The notes under the pieces were generated by a model. It saw nothing but the letters and a program-made list of their open reading frames with translations, was not told the origin of the DNA and did not search any database. A program made the translations under genes and the position numbers. Below, piece after piece: positions 10,340 through 37,921 of a stretch of DNA of 37,921 bases; the stretch's first letter is position 1; every line of letters begins with the position of its first letter. The stretch is from Thermoanaerobaculia bacterium (GTDB lineage Bacteria; Acidobacteriota; Thermoanaerobaculia; Multivoradales; Multivoraceae), in contig JANQPS010000664.1 of assembly GCA_028285365.1 (NCBI GenBank), positions 1 through 37,921 of the forward strand, given 5' to 3'.

Positions 10340-12985
10340 TCAAACGAGCGCCAAGGCCTCCTGCAGTGCCTTGGCAGACTGCGGTCGCGGACCGCGACTT
10401 CGTGAGAGCGCGCGGGCCAAGAGCTCGTCCAAGGGCTCGGGCGCATCGGGTAGGGCCTCTCTGAGACTGGGAGTCGGCCCTCGCCGGATGCGGTCGATGG
10501 TCTCGGGCTTGGTTGGTCCCAGAAACGGGTTGCTCCCGGTAAGGCACTCGAAGAGAACCGTAGCCAGGCTCCACACGTCGAACGAGTAGTCCGGCCGATC
10601 ACCGTCGAGCGCTTCGGGGGAGAGGTAAGGCAGCGTCCCCATGATGGGATAGCCGCCATCTCCTGGGACGACCGCAGTCTGCTCCTGCTGCTCGTCGTGC
10701 TCTTGCAGAACGTCGTCGCCGGCACTCGAGTCCAGCACCAGCTTGGCCAGACCGAAGTCGAGGAGCTTGGGCGTGTCATCATCGGTGTAGCCGATGTTGC
10801 TCGGCTTGATGTCGCGATGCAGGATCCCATGATTGTGGAGACGGTCGGTCACGGCTGCCATCGCTGAGATGAGATCCACCGACGCGCCCACGTCGAGTGG
10901 CCCCTCATCGAGGCGGTCCGCCAGAGTGCCACCGCTCAGGTACTCGAAGATCAGTAGCGGTTGCCCGCGCCAGGACTCCGCGCCATAAATCAGGGCGAGG
11001 TTCGGATGGCTGACTGAAGCCATCGTCCTGGCCTCCCGCCGAAGTCTCACGAGTCGTCTGGAGCTCTGGGACGGCAGTGTCTTGATCGCCACGAGTCGGC
11101 CGAGGTCGAGGTCTTCAGCTCGGTAGACGACGCCCATACCTCCCTGGCCGATCTTGGCTTCGAAGAGGAACTTGCCGGCCAGGACCCGCGGCAGGCCGTT
11201 GGCAGAGTTGGCTCCACCACATCTCGAACACTTCGCCCGGTCGTGGCCTTCGACGAGACCGCACCGGGCGCACTCGTGACCGAGGACTTCCGGAGAGCGC
11301 GTGGATCGCCGCCGACCGAACGTGGCGGACGCCGCTTCTGCTGCCAAATGTCCGTGATCGTCCGTGCCGAGAGTCGGCGCCTCGCTGGTGCCGCCGCCGC
11401 TGGAGAAGGACGAGTCGAGCCTCAGAGAGGCTGCCGCAGCGACACCGTTGAGCAGCAGCAAATCGTCTTCGGTGAACTCGAGGCCGCTCTGCTTCTCGCC
11501 CAGTGCGATGACTCCGATGAGGTCTGAGCTGGAGTCGAGGATGGGGACTAGGAGTCTGAAGCCGCTGTCGACCAACCAGTGGCGCTCATCGCTCGTGAGA
11601 TCGGCGACCTCCGTCGACTCTTCGAGATCAAGCTGGAGTGGTCCGTCGAGCTTTCGAACGAGCACGGAATCGATTGGCAAGGCTCGAGCTCGCTCTCCCT
11701 GTGACCTCAGCGCCCGCGTGCTGATGTCGAGGATCAGCACGTCCACGACGTCGAGGTGAAGGGCTCGATCGATCTCTTCGCAGAGAAGGCCAGAGATGGC
11801 GTTGATGTCTGGGGCAGTGCGGGCTCTGTCGGCAAGCGATACGAGAATGCGCCGCGCGTCGTACCCTTCGCGGAAGAAGCGGCGATCGAGGGCTTCGAGG
11901 AGTCGCGGACGAGCTCGAATGGCCAGGAACCCGAGCAGGGTCAGACCCCCGAGGAGGATGACATCGGGTCCGGAGAAGATCGAGTCCAGGGTCTCCTGCC
12001 TCCGGTTGTACAAGAGCACGAGGGATCCGACGAACGGTGCTGCGGTCAAGGTCATCAGGGTCGTGCGAGCCAGCAGATACTCGAGCGCCTTGCGGACGAT
12101 CAGTTTGAGCGGAATCACACGATGCGCCACGATGACGTAGCTTGCGGTGAACGGCACCGTGAGGAGAAACACGTCCATGACGTGAGTCACCCTGTCCTGG
12201 AAGGTCCCAGGCGCAAGATAGGCGTCTCTGAACTCTGGAGATAAGAGCATCAGGAACACCACAAGGACAAAGGGTGCTATCCCTGCCAAGAGCGCGAGGA
12301 CGAGTGCGGCCGCTCGTCTACGCTCCTGGGTAGGCGCAAGCCTTGTCTTGAGGAGACCAAAGACGAACACCGCCATCATCAAGATGAATAGCAGCGGCCA
12401 GTACAGACTCGATGGATTCCGACGGACGAGGCCGAGGAGACCGTCCTCTGACAGGGGAGAGTACACCCGGCCGCCGAGCATCAAGAGATTGGCGAGAAAC
12501 AGAACCGAACCGCAGATCGCGGAGAAGACGGTGCTAACCCCGAGCGTCTTCTCCCAGCGTCCGGAGAGTGGCACCTGTGGAAACTCGGCCGCGAATCGCC
12601 AGGCAAAGTATGGAAGGAAAGCGTCTAGCTGGAGGTACTCGAAGAGGCTTACGCGGACGTCCCAGGGCCCTGGCACCGAGATGATGGCCGCCTCGGCGAA
12701 CGTCGTGGCTACGAGCAACAGAAAGGCTCCCAGCTGTCGACCCGCCTTGTTGTTACGGGCGCCGAACAGAAGCAGGCCTGCCACCAGACCAAAGCACGCC
12801 ATGTAGGCGAGATGGAGCGAAAGCCGCGTGTCTCGATTCGGCTCCGACTGTAGGAGCACGAGCGCGCAGCACAAGCCAATAGACAGCTTGAGCGCCGCGA
12901 GCGCCACAAGGCCACGCCACCAAGGGTTTGCTGAGTGCATCGGTTCTTGGCAGCTGATCTTATTCAGCATGCTGCCAAGTGCCAC
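10340..12985 (-). CDS. Multi-TM / GAF / zinc-ribbon / Hanks-type Ser/Thr protein kinase
   Basis: Several N-terminal TM segments; GAF-like region around EALDRRFFREGYDARRILVSLADRA...LDVVDVLILD; CARCGLVEGHDRAKCSRCGG; kinase motifs GQGGMGVVYRAE, VAIK, HRDIKPSNIGY, DFGLAK, GTLPYLSPEALDGDRPDYSFDVWSLATVLFECLTGSNPF. Confidence 0.92.
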   Translation of the reverse strand: MALGSMLNKISCQEPMHSANPWWRGLVALAALKLSIGLCCALVLLQSEPNRDTRLSLHLAYMACFGLVAGLLLFGARNNKAGRQLGAFLLLVATTFAEAAIISVPGPWDVRVSLFEYLQLDAFLPYFAWRFAAEFPQVPLSGRWEKTLGVSTVFSAICGSVLFLANLLMLGGRVYSPLSEDGLLGLVRRNPSSLYWPLLFILMMAVFVFGLLKTRLAPTQERRRAAALVLALLAGIAPFVLVVFLMLLSPEFRDAYLAPGTFQDRVTHVMDVFLLTVPFTASYVIVAHRVIPLKLIVRKALEYLLARTTLMTLTAAPFVGSLVLLYNRRQETLDSIFSGPDVILLGGLTLLGFLAIRARPRLLEALDRRFFREGYDARRILVSLADRARTAPDINAISGLLCEEIDRALHLDVVDVLILDISTRALRSQGERARALPIDSVLVRKLDGPLQLDLEESTEVADLTSDERHWLVDSGFRLLVPILDSSSDLIGVIALGEKQSGLEFTEDDLLLLNGVAAAASLRLDSSFSSGGGTSEAPTLGTDDHGHLAAEAASATFGRRRSTRSPEVLGHECARCGLVEGHDRAKCSRCGGANSANGLPRVLAGKFLFEAKIGQGGMGVVYRAEDLDLGRLVAIKTLPSQSSRRLVRLRREARTMASVSHPNLALIYGAESWRGQPLLIFEYLSGGTLADRLDEGPLDVGASVDLISAMAAVTDRLHNHGILHRDIKPSNIGYTDDDTPKLLDFGLAKLVLDSSAGDDVLQEHDEQQEQTAVVPGDGGYPIMGTLPYLSPEALDGDRPDYSFDVWSLATVLFECLTGSNPFLGPTKPETIDRIRRGPTPSLREALPDAPEPLDELLARALSRSRGPRPQSAKALQEALALV

Positions 12986-13104: not shown

Positions 13105-13491
13105 CTAATCGTCGGCGGGGACAATACCGTCGCAAACAGTGAGTTCCGGTACGACACCGCCGGCCAAACACAGTCCTCTGACGATCGAGATCGACTTCCT
13201 GGCCGCTTCTTGGGTCACGGTCTTTTCGCCTTTCGCTGCGGCTGCAGCGGCGGCACAGAAACCCATGAATCCCGACGAGGTGAGGAGAGTCAGCTTGTTG
13301 TTCTCCCAGAAAGGGCCGTTGACCTTGTCCTTGAAGTTCTGACGAAAGGGCTCTTCGAAGTACTGTTTCTTCTCCTTGTCAGTCAGCGTTATCCACTCGT
13401 CGGTCTGACTGAGATCGTTGTACGTGTCGACTCCTCTGACGAGTTGCGTGAGGCAATGTGTCAGTGCGTCTTCCCATACCTTGCTGCTCAT
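13105..13491 (-). CDS. Small orphan protein (about 128 aa), four Cys, poly-Ala tract
   Basis: ORF track extends to 13722, but an internal ATG at 13491 has a strong SD (GGAGGTTCTTATG); product MSSKVWEDALTHCLTQLVRGVDTYNDL...GFMGFCAAAAAAAKGEK...LCLAGGVVPELTVCDGIVPADD; no family recognised. Confidence 0.72.
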   Translation of the reverse strand: MSSKVWEDALTHCLTQLVRGVDTYNDLSQTDEWITLTDKEKKQYFEEPFRQNFKDKVNGPFWENNKLTLLTSSGFMGFCAAAAAAAKGEKTVTQEAARKSISIVRGLCLAGGVVPELTVCDGIVPADD

Positions 13492-13610: not shown

Positions 13611-13626
13611 AGCACGATCTGGGCCA
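13611..13626 (-). promoter_or_regulatory. Candidate sigma-54 -24/-12 promoter (TGGCCC-N5-GTGCT)
   Basis: Two mismatches to TGGCAC-N5-TTGCW with correct GG/GC spacing; 120 nt upstream of the 13491 start codon. Confidence 0.45.
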
Positions 13627-13690
13627 GCTCTCTTCTGCCTTTCGTTTGTAGGAAATCTGCTTTCGGGATTCGGCGGTGGCGCAACAACCT

Positions 13691-13729
13691 GACGGTCGAA
13701 ACGGTCCGGACGGTTGCTCCATCCGTCTC
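13691..13729 (-). promoter_or_regulatory. Candidate enhancer (UAS): GACGGTCGA-AACGGTCCG-GACGGTTGC 9-bp units plus nearby CCGTC
   Basis: Three consecutive 9-bp ACGGT-containing units about 65-105 bp upstream of the candidate -24 element; same core as 17394-17443. Confidence 0.45.
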
Positions 13730-13741
13730 GACAGCCGCTTG

Positions 13742-15343
13742 TCAGCGTTCCAGCTCGGTCATCCGGATCTTGAGTCCTTCTTTCGAGACTTCGAGAGCCT
13801 GTGCAGCAGCCTCGATCTTGTGGTCGTTGGCTTCGAGAGCAGCTTCGATTTCGTCCGCGCCGAGGTCTTTCGCTTTGCGGACCCTCTTGCTCTTCTCGAC
13901 GAGTGAGTAGAGCGAGCCTCGAGACAGGTTGAGAACTTTGGCAGTGGGCCGGATCTGCCAGTGGTTGGCGCGGAGGCACTCGACGAGCTCGTCTTCGCTG
14001 ACGTCCGCGGGATCTCTATAGCGATGGCGTGCGGGCGTCGTCGGGGTGGTTGGAGCGGTGGAGTCTCGAGGTGCTGTGATCGGGGCTGACAGCTGATCTT
14101 CGAGCCAGGGTAGGACTTCGTTGGTCGCGAGCCACTCCCGATCATGGAAGCGCACGGCGAGCCGTGTCGCGACGTTGCGCAGCTGACGCACGTTGCCAGG
14201 CCATCTGTCGAGTGCCAGAGCAGCTACCGCTGCGGCAGGCAGCCACGGACGGTGGCCGTCGGTGTCGAGTTTGTTGCGGCCAGCAGCCTCCTGCAGCTCG
14301 GCGGCTAGCAGGGGATAGAAGAGACGGCCGATATCTTCTCGGCGATGTCGGAGCGCAGGCAGATGAATGACGTAGGCGCTGAGGCGTTGGAGGAGAGGCT
14401 CGCGAAACTCCCCTTGTTCTACCGCCTCTTCGAGGCGAGCATCGGTTGCCGCCAGAATGCGCAGATCGACTTCGTGTTCCTCTTCCGATCCCACGGAACG
14501 GATGGCTCGGTCTTCGATCGCTCTGAGCAGCAGGGCTTGAACCTCGGGGGGAGTGGCCCCGACTTCATCGAGAAACAAGGTCCCAGAAGCGGCCGCGCGA
14601 AAGAGACCAGCACGTGATCTCGTGGAACCGGTAAAAGCCCCTCGAGCCGCTCCGAACAGCTCTGCGGCTGCGAGCGACGGGGGCAACGTCGCCATGTTGA
14701 CCGCAACGAACGGGCCTGCCGAACGCTCACTGGCGTCGTGAATGGCTCGCGCAGTCAGTTCCTTGCCTGTTCCGGTCTCGCCACGAATGAGGACCGGCAC
14801 GTCGACGCGTGCCAACCGCATGATGTCGCTGAAGACTTCCAGCATCCCGTCGCTCTCACCCCGTAGGGAATCGGACGAGCGGATGGCTCTCGTGGGTTCG
14901 AACCGGCGATGCAAGAGGAGGCAGACGCTCTTGCCTAGTAGCAGGACCACTCCTCGGTCGATGGCATCGTCGTCGAATTGCGTTCGACCGGAGCAGGTGA
15001 CGCCGTTGACTGCGAGGCGAGTCGCGCTCGAGGAGTCGATTGTCCAGGTGGCTTCCCGCCTCTCGAGAAGGATTGGCGAGCGACTCAGATGTGTCTCGGC
15101 GAGTGGCTTGCGGCGCCCTCCAGAAAGCGAGGAGAACTCCGGCTCGAGGCGCGAGAGTTTGATGGTGTCGCGAGTCGACGTCGCGTCGAAGAGCTCGGGG
15201 AACGCAATCTCACCTACGCGACCCGTGTCCGGGTGGGCGAGGATGGTGAAACAAACGCGCGGCGTGGAGTCTTCGGTGTCGAAAGACTCGTCGTCGACGG
15301 TGTCTATGTTGAGCCAGTTGCTGCCGGCACTCGGCGGCGACAT
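13742..15343 (-). CDS. Sigma-54-dependent enhancer-binding protein with divergent FHA-like N-terminus and two C-terminal Fis-type HTH units
   Basis: GETGTGKE Walker A; ELFGAARGAFTGS; GTLFLDEVG Walker B; LPALRHRREDI; WPGNVRQLRNV; N-terminal LSRSPILLERREATWTID...VNG...RGVVLLLGKSVCLLLHR; C-terminal DELVECLRANHWQIRPTAKVLNLSRGSLYSLVEK and DEIEAALEANDHKIEAAAQALEVSKEGLKIRMTEL. Confidence 0.93.
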   Translation of the reverse strand: MSPPSAGSNWLNIDTVDDESFDTEDSTPRVCFTILAHPDTGRVGEIAFPELFDATSTRDTIKLSRLEPEFSSLSGGRRKPLAETHLSRSPILLERREATWTIDSSSATRLAVNGVTCSGRTQFDDDAIDRGVVLLLGKSVCLLLHRRFEPTRAIRSSDSLRGESDGMLEVFSDIMRLARVDVPVLIRGETGTGKELTARAIHDASERSAGPFVAVNMATLPPSLAAAELFGAARGAFTGSTRSRAGLFRAAASGTLFLDEVGATPPEVQALLLRAIEDRAIRSVGSEEEHEVDLRILAATDARLEEAVEQGEFREPLLQRLSAYVIHLPALRHRREDIGRLFYPLLAAELQEAAGRNKLDTDGHRPWLPAAAVAALALDRWPGNVRQLRNVATRLAVRFHDREWLATNEVLPWLEDQLSAPITAPRDSTAPTTPTTPARHRYRDPADVSEDELVECLRANHWQIRPTAKVLNLSRGSLYSLVEKSKRVRKAKDLGADEIEAALEANDHKIEAAAQALEVSKEGLKIRMTELER

Positions 15344-15522: not shown

Positions 15523-16344
15523 CTAGAGGCGCGACCCGTCGTCGATGTGGGAGATACGCTGGTCATAGCGCATGACGGTGTTGCGCAGCTTGCGCAGAAG
15601 CATCGCGTGCTCGTTGCGTCGCTCGTCGACGACGCCTGGGGGTGGGTAGACGAAACGAAGTGAGGTCTCTGCCGAGGTCACGAGGAGGAGCTCATGGCCG
15701 CTGTTGCCTTCGATGACCTCGTAGACGACGACCGGGTCGGAGTCGCCTCCGGCTCGATAGGCCGCAAGTAGCTCTTCGAGAGCCCTCTCCATGGCCGCGC
15801 CACCTCCAGGACGAGCGAACAGCCTCGTGGTCATGAGGCCTGACGAGCCGGAGAGTTTGCGTCTCTCCGGTCCGGCTTCGGACGAGAGATCACTACGTCG
15901 CTCGAGGACGAGCCGATACTGATGGTCGACCCGCTCGATGGCGCGATCCCACGCCTCGGTGCTGCGAAGGTCTTCGACCATCTGAACTCGAATCTCGTCT
16001 TCCCAGGTGGCAACCTCCCTCAGCGAGCGGAAGGACGTGGCAACGACGTAGAACGAGGCCGGCATGCGGTTCGCCCCAAACGGGCTCTGCAGCACCATGT
16101 GCACGCCCCGGTAGGAATCGAGCGCGTTCTCTGGTGTTCTGGAGCGCCATCTCTCGATCAGGTAGCGCATGTCGCCTCTGTAGGGTTGCATCTGATTCAA
16201 GCCGACTTCGTGAACGAGAAGTCGCACGTGGGTGGCGTCGTCGAACCACTGGATGTCGGAACCGGCCGAGCGAGAGGTCGCGCCGAAGAGACACAGCAGC
16301 ACCATCGGTGCAAGGGACCACGCTCCAGGGGTCGCTGCCTTCAT
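15523..16344 (-). CDS. Predicted secreted protein, paralogous to the adjacent gene
   Basis: N-terminal signal-like segment WSLAPMVLLCLFGATSRSAG; start codon overlaps the upstream stop (ATGA). Confidence 0.78.
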   Translation of the reverse strand: MKAATPGAWSLAPMVLLCLFGATSRSAGSDIQWFDDATHVRLLVHEVGLNQMQPYRGDMRYLIERWRSRTPENALDSYRGVHMVLQSPFGANRMPASFYVVATSFRSLREVATWEDEIRVQMVEDLRSTEAWDRAIERVDHQYRLVLERRSDLSSEAGPERRKLSGSSGLMTTRLFARPGGGAAMERALEELLAAYRAGGDSDPVVVYEVIEGNSGHELLLVTSAETSLRFVYPPPGVVDERRNEHAMLLRKLRNTVMRYDQRISHIDDGSRL

Positions 16345-17201
16345 GGTTTGCTCTGACTGCTGACGTCGGCCGCTCCGAGCGCGGGCGACAGTTCGTGGTT
16401 GCGCTCGGCGTAGCGCACTTCGTAGCGTCTCGTCGTCTCGAGAAAGTCAGCAGCCAGGACTGCCAGCTCACTGCCGAGGGACTCTTCGACCTTCTGGATC
16501 TCAGCGGCGAGATCGGCCTCGTTTCGCGACGCACTGCCTACGACAAATAGTGGCCCCTCCGGCCCGACAGCTTGCTGGAACACGACGTAACCCTGGCCAC
16601 TGTTGCGCTTCTCGACGGCGGCGCGCCAGGCTTCTAATGCTGCTTCGAAGGCAGCTTCTTTCCCAGGCTTGACGAAGGCGTACTCGAGGCGGAGGAAGTT
16701 GCGTTCGTTCGCGAGAACCCAGGGCTTCTCGGGCTCGTAGGAGAGGTCGCCCCGAAATCGTAGGAGAGTGGTCGACGTCGAGAGCAGGGTGTCGCTCATC
16801 GTCGCGACTGCGTCGCCAATCTTCGAGTCACCGCTGGCGATCAGCGCGTCGGTGGCAGCGTTGGCGCGGTCGAGGTCCGCCATGGACTGCAGCGGAAACA
16901 CGTAGCTGACACCAACCGAGCTGCGGTTGTTCCAGGCCTGGGTCGCCCGGAGCGGGTACTTGTGATGGCTCAGGACCGCCTGGATCTGCTTCATGGCCGG
17001 AACGTAGTCCTGGAGCTTCGACGGATCGATTTCGTGCTCGGTGAGTTGAATGTAGGGCGGGGGAGATTGAGCGGGCAGAACACTCGAGGCGAGGAGCGCA
17101 ACGAGCGAGAAGATCGAGAAGACGGCGAGTGACGGGCGACGGACGAGCCGGGTTCGTCCGGGGAGATGGCAGGGAAACGACTGGTGATGGATTGGATACA
17201 C
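16341..17201 (-). CDS. Predicted secreted protein with dimeric alpha/beta-barrel-like (NIPSNAP/ABM-like) pattern
   Basis: GTG start with AGGAGG SD (agcaggaggaatccagcGTG); signal segment LAVFSIFSLVALLASSVLPAQS; EYAFVKPGKEAAFEAALEAWRAAVEKRNSGQGYVVFQQAVGPEGPLFVVGSASRNEADL. Confidence 0.78.
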   Translation of the reverse strand: MYPIHHQSFPCHLPGRTRLVRRPSLAVFSIFSLVALLASSVLPAQSPPPYIQLTEHEIDPSKLQDYVPAMKQIQAVLSHHKYPLRATQAWNNRSSVGVSYVFPLQSMADLDRANAATDALIASGDSKIGDAVATMSDTLLSTSTTLLRFRGDLSYEPEKPWVLANERNFLRLEYAFVKPGKEAAFEAALEAWRAAVEKRNSGQGYVVFQQAVGPEGPLFVVGSASRNEADLAAEIQKVEESLGSELAVLAADFLETTRRYEVRYAERNHELSPALGAADVSSQSKP

Positions 17202-17338: not shown

Positions 17339-17393
17339 GGCCCGGGCAGGCTCTGGAAGAGCTGGAAAGGCAGTGTTTTGGGGGTCTTCTGCT

Positions 17394-17443
17394 GAGCAGA
17401 CGACGGTCGTCAGAGCGGTCGCGACCGTCTAGACCGTCTGCTC
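17394..17443. promoter_or_regulatory. Nested inverted repeat with several GACGGTC/GACCGTC copies; candidate EBP enhancer
   Basis: Outer arms GAGCAGACGACGGTC / GACCGTCTGCTC; central perfect 12-bp palindrome CGGTCGCGACCG (17416-17427); 56-105 bp upstream of the candidate -24 box. Confidence 0.55.
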
Positions 17444-34762: not shown

Positions 34763-37267
34763 CTATGGGCGGTCAGTCGATGTCGCTGACGGGTCGCGCT
34801 CGATGAAGCCATGATGGAGTCCGAGATAGTAGGGGAGCAGAAACGAGGCGCCGTCGGCGAGGTTGAGACCACGTCCACCATAGTCGAGCGTCCAAGGATC
34901 GACGTTCCAATGGTTGACCCACCGTTCGTCGATCGGTAGCACCTTGCCGTCGCGCTTGTGTCCCTTGGGGCGCTGCTCGGTCGATGTGCGTAGCTCCACG
35001 ATGTCGAGCCGGTGGGAGTTGCGTAGCGGCCAGTCGATGCGGTCGAGAGGGTAGCGCCGCAGTGTGTCGAGCGAGTCCTCGGCCCAGTCGTTGCCGTCGG
35101 GTTCCACCATGAAGTCGTCGAAGGCGTCCCTGTAGCGAGTGGGGTTGTCTTTCATCGCGCCGGCGAACAGGTAGTGAAAGAGCGGATTGCGCTCGGGTGC
35201 CTCGTTGCGCCAGTAGCGATAGAAGCTGTGTGCCCAGAGCGAGCGCAGTTGATCGTCCCGCTCGTAGCGCATGAGGTTGTAGAACCCCATGAACGCCATC
35301 TCGTCGTCGGACTGGTTGCCGGTTCCGGGCCCCTCGTGGACCTTCGGCGTGCGCGTGTTGGCCGCGTAGCCGTGACGTTCGATGAGCTCTCGAGCGGCTG
35401 AGGCGTAGCGCTCCCTGTCAGCACCCACGGCTACGTGCTCCGCGACCCGCAAGTAGGAGAGCATGCTCATCGAGTTGAGGCCGCGCTCCTCCCACCAGTC
35501 GAGATCATCGTTCAGAGCAGATGGTGAGAACACCGCCCAGCGAGTGGGGAGGCCGTCGTGGTCGACCAGGCTGTGGTCGTTGGCGAGCAGATGGTCTGTG
35601 ACGCGTTGGACCGCTTCGCGGACGCGTACCTTCTCGTCCTCGTCGGCGACCAGGTCGTAGTACAGAGCATTGAAGAAGTAGTGACCGTCGAGCTCGTCGG
35701 AGCTCGTGTCACCTTTCCAGAACCACTGGCCGTCGGCTGAGGTTGGCCACCGAGGTTCGATCAGTTTCCACTTGCGGTCACGCTGCTGGTGCTCGCGATC
35801 GCGGGCGAGACGACCCTCGTTGGGGTCCGGGCCTGAGATCGTCAGGATGCTGCGTGCGATGAAGCCTGGCGGCGGCTCGTGTGAACCACCCTCGGTGACG
35901 AGGCCTAGGAACTCGAGCGCGCGAAACGCCCTCCGGGCTCGGTCTCGAGCGGTTTGCGAACCGGTGGCTGACCAGGCGAGAACCTGGGCAGCGCCGTACA
36001 TGCTCGTCCACAGTCCGTCGTTGTCGCTATCTCGCTGGCGATACGGATCCTTCTGGCCGGGCTCTTCCAGGATCACGGCGTCGACGTAGGAGTACGGTGT
36101 GCGCCGGTGTCGCTTTTCGATCTCCTCGTCGAAGAAGCCGGCTTTCTCCTCGAGAGTGACTCCGAGCTGGGCGATCTCGCTGACCCCTGAGCTAGTCGCC
36201 GCCCAGGCGTGTCCAGACGCATCGACCGAGAGCGCATGGACCTGGTTGTCGAGGAGCCAGCGCGGCCCGGCGCGATACTCCCACAGCGAGTGGGCGGGCT
36301 GATCCAGATCAGGGACGAGGCGGATCAAGCCATGGTCTCCCCCGATCCACACAGATCCATCGGGGCTCGGGCTAACGGAACTGAGATCACCTACCGGAGG
36401 GCCCTGATGGTTCTCCCAGAGGACCCACGACTGGTCCTTCGAATCGTAGGCGCCGACTCCGCGCTCTGCCGTGACCCAGAGGTGGCCTTCGTGGTCGAAG
36501 GCAACGTCAGTCACGCTCGCAGCGTCCCAGGTGGCGCCAGCCGACCGTATGGGTACATCGAGCCACGATGAGGACGTGTCGTCGAGGTGGTGAAGTCTGA
36601 GTGCGGGGTCGAGCCCGCGCACCAGCACGGCGACGGCACTGCTGGAGGCAGCGACGAAATGCGGTTGCTCTCCGAGATCGAGTTGCACGACGAGCTCGAG
36701 GTTGCGGTCGCGACGCTCGATTCGCGACGCGTCGAAGCTCCAGAGCGAGCCGCCCGTGGGATCTGTGAAGACCCTCGACGCGGACCAACTGACGGGCACA
36801 CTGTTGCCTGCTCCATCGTCGATGCGGGCGACCTCGTCCTCGTACGTAGCGAAGAGACCGGCTGTCGTCCAGGCGAGGGAACTTGGTGGCGCCTCCAGAG
36901 ACGCGGCGTTCTCCCAGCTTGCCGCTTCGAGCGCTTCGACCCGCTTCGAGAGCTCGGCGGTGCGGGCGGGTGGCTTGCGCCTGAGGATCATGATCTCGTT
37001 GCCCGTTGCGACTGCTACCTCACCTCCGGGAGAGATGGTGACGTGATGCGCCGAGGGTTCGAGCTCGTGACGCACGGGCACCTGCTGCTTGAAGGTCGGG
37101 GGAGCCGCGCTCGCCTGTTGAGAGAGAGCCTGATGAGAGAGAGCCTGATGAGAGAGAGCCTGAGCGGAGAGAACTGTGCCGGAAAGGGCTGCCATCGCGA
37201 CGAGGATCCATCGCGTGATGGCGCGCTCCAATCGGAGCCCAGGGCGTGCCGAAGCTGTTTTGACCAT
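34763..37267 (-). CDS. Large secreted protein: N-terminal regulator-type propeller-like repeats, C-terminal alpha-helical (possible toroid) domain
   Basis: Signal peptide then repeated VTDVAFDHEGHLWVTAERGVGAYD / DLSSVSPSPDGSVWIGGDHGLIRL / VHALSVDASGHAWAATSSGVSEI; C-terminal HYFFNALYYDLVADEDEKVRVREAVQRVTDHLLAND. Confidence 0.85.
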   Translation of the reverse strand: MVKTASARPGLRLERAITRWILVAMAALSGTVLSAQALSHQALSHQALSQQASAAPPTFKQQVPVRHELEPSAHHVTISPGGEVAVATGNEIMILRRKPPARTAELSKRVEALEAASWENAASLEAPPSSLAWTTAGLFATYEDEVARIDDGAGNSVPVSWSASRVFTDPTGGSLWSFDASRIERRDRNLELVVQLDLGEQPHFVAASSSAVAVLVRGLDPALRLHHLDDTSSSWLDVPIRSAGATWDAASVTDVAFDHEGHLWVTAERGVGAYDSKDQSWVLWENHQGPPVGDLSSVSPSPDGSVWIGGDHGLIRLVPDLDQPAHSLWEYRAGPRWLLDNQVHALSVDASGHAWAATSSGVSEIAQLGVTLEEKAGFFDEEIEKRHRRTPYSYVDAVILEEPGQKDPYRQRDSDNDGLWTSMYGAAQVLAWSATGSQTARDRARRAFRALEFLGLVTEGGSHEPPPGFIARSILTISGPDPNEGRLARDREHQQRDRKWKLIEPRWPTSADGQWFWKGDTSSDELDGHYFFNALYYDLVADEDEKVRVREAVQRVTDHLLANDHSLVDHDGLPTRWAVFSPSALNDDLDWWEERGLNSMSMLSYLRVAEHVAVGADRERYASAARELIERHGYAANTRTPKVHEGPGTGNQSDDEMAFMGFYNLMRYERDDQLRSLWAHSFYRYWRNEAPERNPLFHYLFAGAMKDNPTRYRDAFDDFMVEPDGNDWAEDSLDTLRRYPLDRIDWPLRNSHRLDIVELRTSTEQRPKGHKRDGKVLPIDERWVNHWNVDPWTLDYGGRGLNLADGASFLLPYYLGLHHGFIERDPSATSTDRP
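37121..37165. repeat. 15-bp in-frame tandem repeat (3 copies) encoding (ALSHQ)n just after the signal peptide
   Basis: agagagagcctgatg x2 then agagagagcctgagc; protein AQALSHQALSHQALSQQA. Confidence 0.9.
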
Positions 37268-37436
37268 AGGGATTCAAGTGGTCCTCGAGCCGATGGAACG
37301 TGGCTGACTTCTGAGTGGAAGGCGAAGTATGACAAGGGAGTATCTCAGAGTGTGCGTCGAGGTCCGTGGGTCTGCGCTACTGTCTGTCGTTCAGGCGGAG
37401 CTGATACCGAGCTGATACCGAGCTGATGCAGATCTC

Positions 37437-37921
37437 ATGCAGATAAGGACACTCAGGGACGGTGAGCAAGAGGCAGTTCTAGAGCTGCTCGACGGCTGGC
37501 CGTTCGAAGACGCTCGCAGGGGCCGCGACTTCTTCCGTCGCTATCTCGAGCTCGATCACACGTTCGAGCCTCGGAACATCTGGGTAGCGGAGGAGGCCGG
37601 ACAGCTGGTCTGTTGTGTCCATGTCTTTCCGCGGCGCCTTCGCCTCGAGGGTCATGAAGTGCCTGCCGGCGGCATCGGCAGCGTATTCACCAGCGCGTCG
37701 TTTCGAGGTCGTGGCCTGGCCTCCGAGGTCCTGCAAGCGGCCGTCGACGACATGACCGCGCGGGGAATGGAGCTCTCGCTGCTCTGGGCGAATCGAGTGG
37801 CCTGGTACCAAGGACTCGGCTGGGAGCCGTGGGGGGGCGAGCAGGTCGAGTTGATCTGGGGAGACCCAGTTGGCGCTGGCCGCGCCCGAAGACCTGCCGA
37901 GGCGTCGCGCCTCGAAGTGGT
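37437..37921 (+). CDS. GNAT-family N-acetyltransferase, truncated by window end
   Basis: Manual translation MQIRTLRDGEQEAVLELLDGWPFEDARRGRDFFRRYLELDHTFEPRNIWVAEEAGQLVCCVHVFPRRLRLEGHEVPAGGIGSVFTSASFRGRGLASEVLQAAVDDM...; not in the ORF track because it has no stop in the window. Confidence 0.85.
   Translation, partial: MQIRTLRDGEQEAVLELLDGWPFEDARRGRDFFRRYLELDHTFEPRNIWVAEEAGQLVCCVHVFPRRLRLEGHEVPAGGIGSVFTSASFRGRGLASEVLQAAVDDMTARGMELSLLWANRVAWYQGLGWEPWGGEQVELIWGDPVGAGRARRPAEASRLEV

Follow-up and report, generated by a model that had tools for sequence, protein, structure and literature searches.

Bacterial enhancer-binding proteins (EBPs) of the NtrC/PspF/NorR type, which work with sigma-54 promoters, are the closest described systems (review PMC7175178). 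The EBP encoded in the window, the 37,921-nt stretch of Thermoanaerobaculia DNA analysed here, resembles them in having an AAA+ domain with Walker motifs, a GAFTGA-type loop, a Fis-type HTH, and a candidate UAS upstream of a -24/-12 element. In contrast to these proteins, it carries two HTH motifs per chain and is accompanied by GAC/GTC-core arrays with units about once per helical turn, and its R domain falls outside groups 1-5 in the table of the same review (PMC7175178).

FHA-domain EBPs have been described in Myxococcus xanthus (Jelsbak, Givskov and Kaiser 2005, cited in PMC12288465). The window EBP shares with these proteins a presumed FHA input coupled to Ser/Thr kinases and an output through AAA+ and HTH domains; it differs from them in an N-terminus that is too divergent for the Pfam FHA models. 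Another M. xanthus protein, Nla28, works in the starvation-response network and has repeated 8-bp half-sites, CT(C/G)CG(C/G)AG, upstream of sigma-54 promoters; tandem-repeat sites of EBPs typically lie 80-150 bp upstream (PMC7910581). The repeats at the two window promoters discussed below (P1 and P2) are likewise found upstream of sigma-54-like elements, but the window loci have multi-unit GACCGT arrays instead of such half-sites. Our search of the open-access literature found no paper on double-HTH EBPs or on sigma-54 in Thermoanaerobaculia.

Gene order and the two sigma-54-like elements

On the minus strand, the genes and candidate promoters are arranged in the order glyoxalase (17937-17494), P1, p286, p273, EBP (13742..15343), P2, a small protein, and a membrane/GAF Ser/Thr kinase. 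The putative P1 target p286 (16341..17201) is a 286-aa protein with an apparent signal peptide and a GTG start following a AGGAGGAA-type ribosome site; weak homologues were found in 8 of 99 genomes, together with two further matches in its own genome (22-29% identity). The second gene behind P1, p273 (15523..16344), encodes a 273-aa protein without a family.

The predicted P2 target (13105..13491, minus strand) encodes a 128-aa orphan protein with GGAGG 6 nt ahead of its ATG. A Pfam search gave nothing over the cut-off, NCBIfam gave no family, and no homologue was found in 149 genomes of the class. The codon score of this gene is weak but positive and its GC content by codon position is coding-like, and the fold prediction was uninformative (pLDDT 44). 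Because the gene is an orphan, footprinting of P2 in orthologues is impossible. The following kinase gene (10340..12985, minus strand, start at 12985 or 12907; Pkinase E 9.7e-38, GAF match just under the cut-off at E 3.9e-4) is possibly part of the P2 transcript, judging from its strand and the gap of 120-200 bp. An Rfam scan of the window produced no match.

The initial annotation had proposed that a second sigma-54-like promoter lies upstream of the small-protein gene and shares an enhancer core, spacing and leader length with the first. The minus strand indeed reads TGGCCC-AGATC-GTGCT (TGGCCCAGATCGTGCT) at 13626-13611 (P2), which scores 11.1 bits with an approximate matrix and has two mismatches to TGGCACNNNNNTTGCW, deviating at both elements (TGGCCC, GTGCT). 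P1, with CGGCAC-TCCTG-TTGCA (CGGCACTCCTGTTGCA) at 17338-17323 on the minus strand, is the best site in the window (13.8 bits, one mismatch to the sigma-54 consensus). The GG and GC dinucleotides are present with proper spacing at -24/-12 in both elements.

The candidate enhancer array of P2 consists of three consecutive 9-bp units (13691..13717), 65-91 bp upstream of the -24 element. On the plus strand these read GACGGTCGA AACGGTCCG GACGGTTGC, where RACGGTY corresponds to the GACCGTC type on the gene strand. The nearby CCGTC (13723..13727), also recorded initially, is a possible partial unit and is too short to weigh alone. At P1, the candidate array (17402..17438) is located 64-100 bp upstream of the -24 element and reads GACGGTC-TA-GACGGTC-GC-GACCGCTC...GACCGTC on the gene strand; it comprises the previously noticed GACGGTC motifs at 17438-17432 and 17429-17423 and a GACCGTC at 17408-17402. 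The P1 units lie in both orientations, a point against the reading preferred below.

The agreement in motif and spacing holds, with GACCGTC 64 bp from the -24 element at P2 and 63 bp at P1. The promoter-to-start distances of 120 nt (P2, start at 13491) and 122 nt (P1, start at 17201) are also correct as first given, but leaders in the EBP family vary widely (about 30 to 300 nt), so this equality carries no weight and is probably a coincidence.

Frequency of the elements in the window and in the genome

The -24/-12 match of P2 had been called weak by itself, and over the whole window it does not exceed chance: order-1 Markov windows contain 2.5 sites of at least 11 bits per 38 kb, compared with two in the window. 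The conjunction of such a match with the repeat units is beyond chance. Both window sites of at least 11 bits, P1 and P2, have three RACGGTY units 45-115 bp upstream, and a composite with at least two units occurred in none of 150 Markov-resampled windows.

The scan suggested in the initial annotation gave the few hits expected, all at this locus. The genome scans were pattern searches with patterns written after P1 and P2 had been seen, and the rarity figures therefore overstate the case: in the 9.1-Mb genome, GACCGTC-N50..80-YGGCMC-N5-KTGCW matched P1 and P2 only (three matches for the reversed control), and the tandem units RACGGTYNNRACGGTY occurred seven times (once for the reversed control), three of them at P1/P2. 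Around the other four RACGGTYNNRACGGTY matches, loci of up to 3 kb contain no good sigma-54 site. A much looser composite showed no excess in the same genome, with 82 hits compared with 197 for the reversed control.

Chance recurrence of short GC-rich words in two intergenic regions would be in keeping with the frequency of the loose composite, with the post hoc choice of patterns, and with a generic repeat-count test, in which the sites taken singly were not significant (P1 p 0.16, P2 p 0.30). A test of sharing between P1 and P2, in one 7-mer version, was weak as well (p 0.1), with 25 of 60 non-cognate pairs equally good. This explanation appears very unlikely in view of the genome-wide rarity, the Markov simulation, and the finding of this core at the equivalent position in the related loci L165, L167 and L172. 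Across the class, GGACCGT combined with a sigma-54 site was not enriched (11 hits compared with about 9 for the reversed control); therefore, the P2-like core is not a class-wide regulon signal.

Repeat arrays and sigma-54 sites at related EBP loci

Eighteen further genomes of the class encode numerous relatives of the EBP, and its own genome encodes another two. Upstream regions around 60 related EBP loci contained 32 sigma-54 sites of at least 12 bits, compared with 1.6 in shuffled sequences. Within 300 bp downstream of the EBP stop codon, a sigma-54 site score of at least 11 bits is reached in 13 of 59 loci and in 1.2% of shuffles. These relatives share the same architecture, in which the EBP stop codon is followed by a repeat array, a sigma-54 site and the next gene. 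The readable genes behind the post-EBP sites are often small and mutually unrelated, with family databases searched for the window's own gene only.

The arrays of the family are periodic. Upstream of 31 EBP-adjacent sites, self-matches of 5-mers peaked at lag 10 (2.23 per region), compared with 0.38 in control upstream regions of these loci lacking such a site and 0.16 in shuffles, and the repeat lags were 9-12, 19-22 and 30-31 bp. Periodicity was weaker at 20 exact sigma-54 sites located elsewhere in three genomes (1.0 at lag 10), a few of which likewise have GAC-core arrays.

Such periodicity bears on the idea that the repeats at 13680-13720 and 17390-17440, inverted as well as direct, could be terminators or repetitive DNA following the EBP and glyoxalase genes. 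Each lies shortly after a stop codon and is able to form a fold (-21.1 and -26.6 kcal/mol, respectively), but their z-scores on the transcribed strand are only -1.0 and -1.9, no T run follows, a terminator scan gave no match at either repeat, and the lag-10 signal is much weaker where genes of these loci lack an upstream sigma-54 site. We consider this origin of the repeats highly improbable. An intrinsic terminator at the arrays, defined as a stable hairpin followed by a T run, was rejected as a candidate.

The core of the array varies from locus to locus and includes TCGTCGAG, CGACAC, CGACAT, TGACACC and GACCGT. GACCGT-type arrays with a good sigma-54 site at the position of P2 are present in L165 (GGACGGTAGGACGGT ... 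AGACCGTCCGGACGGTC) and in L167 and L172 (GGACCGTTGAACGGTCC), and at the paralogous locus L146 of the same genome, the sigma-54 sites on either side of the EBP gene both come with CGACATG-type arrays. The -12 variant GTGCT of P2 recurs at the family sites L158, L162, L167, L172 and L186. Loci with similar HTH motifs tend to have similar arrays (Mantel r 0.37, p 0.0002, n=24 loci), a correlation that draws on close relatives among the top pairs. The array score alone separates EBP-adjacent from far gaps only modestly (10% compared with 3% at a score of at least 10), and other repeats are among the hits.

L165, L167 and L172, together with L146 and the periodicity, indicate that P2 follows the family pattern. 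The shared enhancer core claimed initially is found at P1 and P2; as a fixed GACGGTC enhancer it did not hold up, and it is instead a locus-specific version of a family-wide repeat array. The reading of P2 is decided by this comparative evidence, which supports the original proposal of a second enhancer-linked promoter. We regard it as likely that P2 is a sigma-54 promoter with the 13691-13717 array as its enhancer, and that the EBP binds the P1 and P2 arrays and activates both promoters. As the family loci share this architecture, the array behind the EBP gene of the window is probably the place where the EBP binds when it switches on neighbouring genes.

Alternatively, the P2 array alone could be functional, for instance serving P1 or another nearby promoter as an auxiliary or shared enhancer, with the -24/-12 match arising by chance. 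The match is at chance level when taken alone, and P2 scores lowest among the 13 post-EBP sites, which was counted against it. On the other hand, P2 is the best site within 300 bp past the EBP stop codon, a region in which 1.2% of shuffles reach 11 bits; its orientation and distance range are those of the relatives, the spacing of GACCGTC is nearly that of P1, and the start codon that follows P2 has a strong ribosome site. An array acting without P2 is accordingly unlikely, and a sigma-54 promoter at P2 is the preferred reading.

Several further observations concern arrays and targets at other positions. GAC/GTC-core arrays precede exact sigma-54 sites in L200, L206 and L203, where no EBP match is present within 1.5-kb flanks; these sites are possible distant targets of the EBP family. 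The highest array score in the window belongs to direct repeats of about 11 bp (GAGCTGATACC type) at 37364-37450, in a gap beside a minus-strand gene with its start called at 37231, where no link to an EBP was seen. In L156, a unit of about 10-11 bp (CCTCGACCCC type) is repeated head to tail at least five times at positions 1379-1460, 4 kb from an EBP gene. Beside five EBPs, the sigma-54 targets (L127 7311-7934, L142 7078-7698, L145 4060-4704, L173 4035-4661 and L140 4178-4762) encode similar proteins of about 200 aa with a common MRIFPLQNALID-type stretch, L140 being more distant. We presume that these proteins resemble the PixA/AidA inclusion-body proteins.

The activator and the proposed circuit

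The EBP contains a Sigma54_activat domain (PF00158, E 4.5e-57) and an HTH_8 match (27.2 bits). Its sigma-54 contact loop reads GAFTGS, not GAFTGA, and 8 of the 61 family members have this form. Two C-terminal HTH motifs were read by eye in essentially every row of an alignment of these 61 proteins, including that of the window, and the AlphaFold model (pLDDT 80.8) places two three-helix units at residues 450-484 and 496-530. The N-terminus is beta-rich in the model. Pfam sequence scans of this region found no FHA domain, and the EBP family profile matched chain 3gqs_A, which we take to be an FHA domain, with an E value of 0.0022 across an SR...SK-NG pattern. A PDB fold search was uninformative on the N-terminus, because each of the 50 matches listed was to a sigma-54 activator protein, in most cases to its AAA+ domain. 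The EBP is one of a family that has expanded in Thermoanaerobaculia and whose N-terminus is divergent and FHA-like.

A kinase of the HRDxKPxN type is encoded within 5 kb of 26 of the 61 EBPs, as a raw count. The sigma-54 DNA-binding domain (PF04552) is present in the genome in two parts (positions 1-73 and 87-160) on contigs G000:C1293 and G000:C1081 (L196, L197), one of them at the first bases of its contig, which is compatible with a single rpoN gene split during assembly.

In the proposed mechanism, the EBP would use its two C-terminal HTH motifs to bind both the P2 array and its counterpart at P1. The bound protein would form an AAA+ ring and loop to the sigma-54 RNA polymerase at -24/-12, where its ATP hydrolysis would start transcription of the 128-aa gene, and perhaps of the downstream kinase gene, from P2. 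From P1, it would activate p286-p273 and perhaps the EBP gene itself. Given its FHA-like N-terminus and the Ser/Thr kinase encoded nearby, the EBP may respond to threonine phosphorylation, either of itself or of a partner. Were the EBP a target of this kinase, P2 would, we infer, complete a feedback loop. The matching numbers also prompt the idea that each chain reads two neighbouring units, one with each HTH motif.

Sigma-54 activators usually have one HTH and few sites. A broader model, which we put forward tentatively and hold at slightly less than even, is that FHA-like, double-HTH paralogues form private circuits, each reading its own GAC/GTC-core array, with about one unit per helical turn, at the regulator locus and thereby controlling small genes specific to the lineage. 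The window EBP with the RACGGTY arrays at P1 and P2 would be one such circuit, its two HTH motifs resting on adjacent units. If so, the double-HTH paralogues would be a natural set for learning how HTH residues set the enhancer sequence, and the family would show how parallel circuits stay separate within one cell. Many orphan genes beside these regulators would then become predictable sigma-54 targets.
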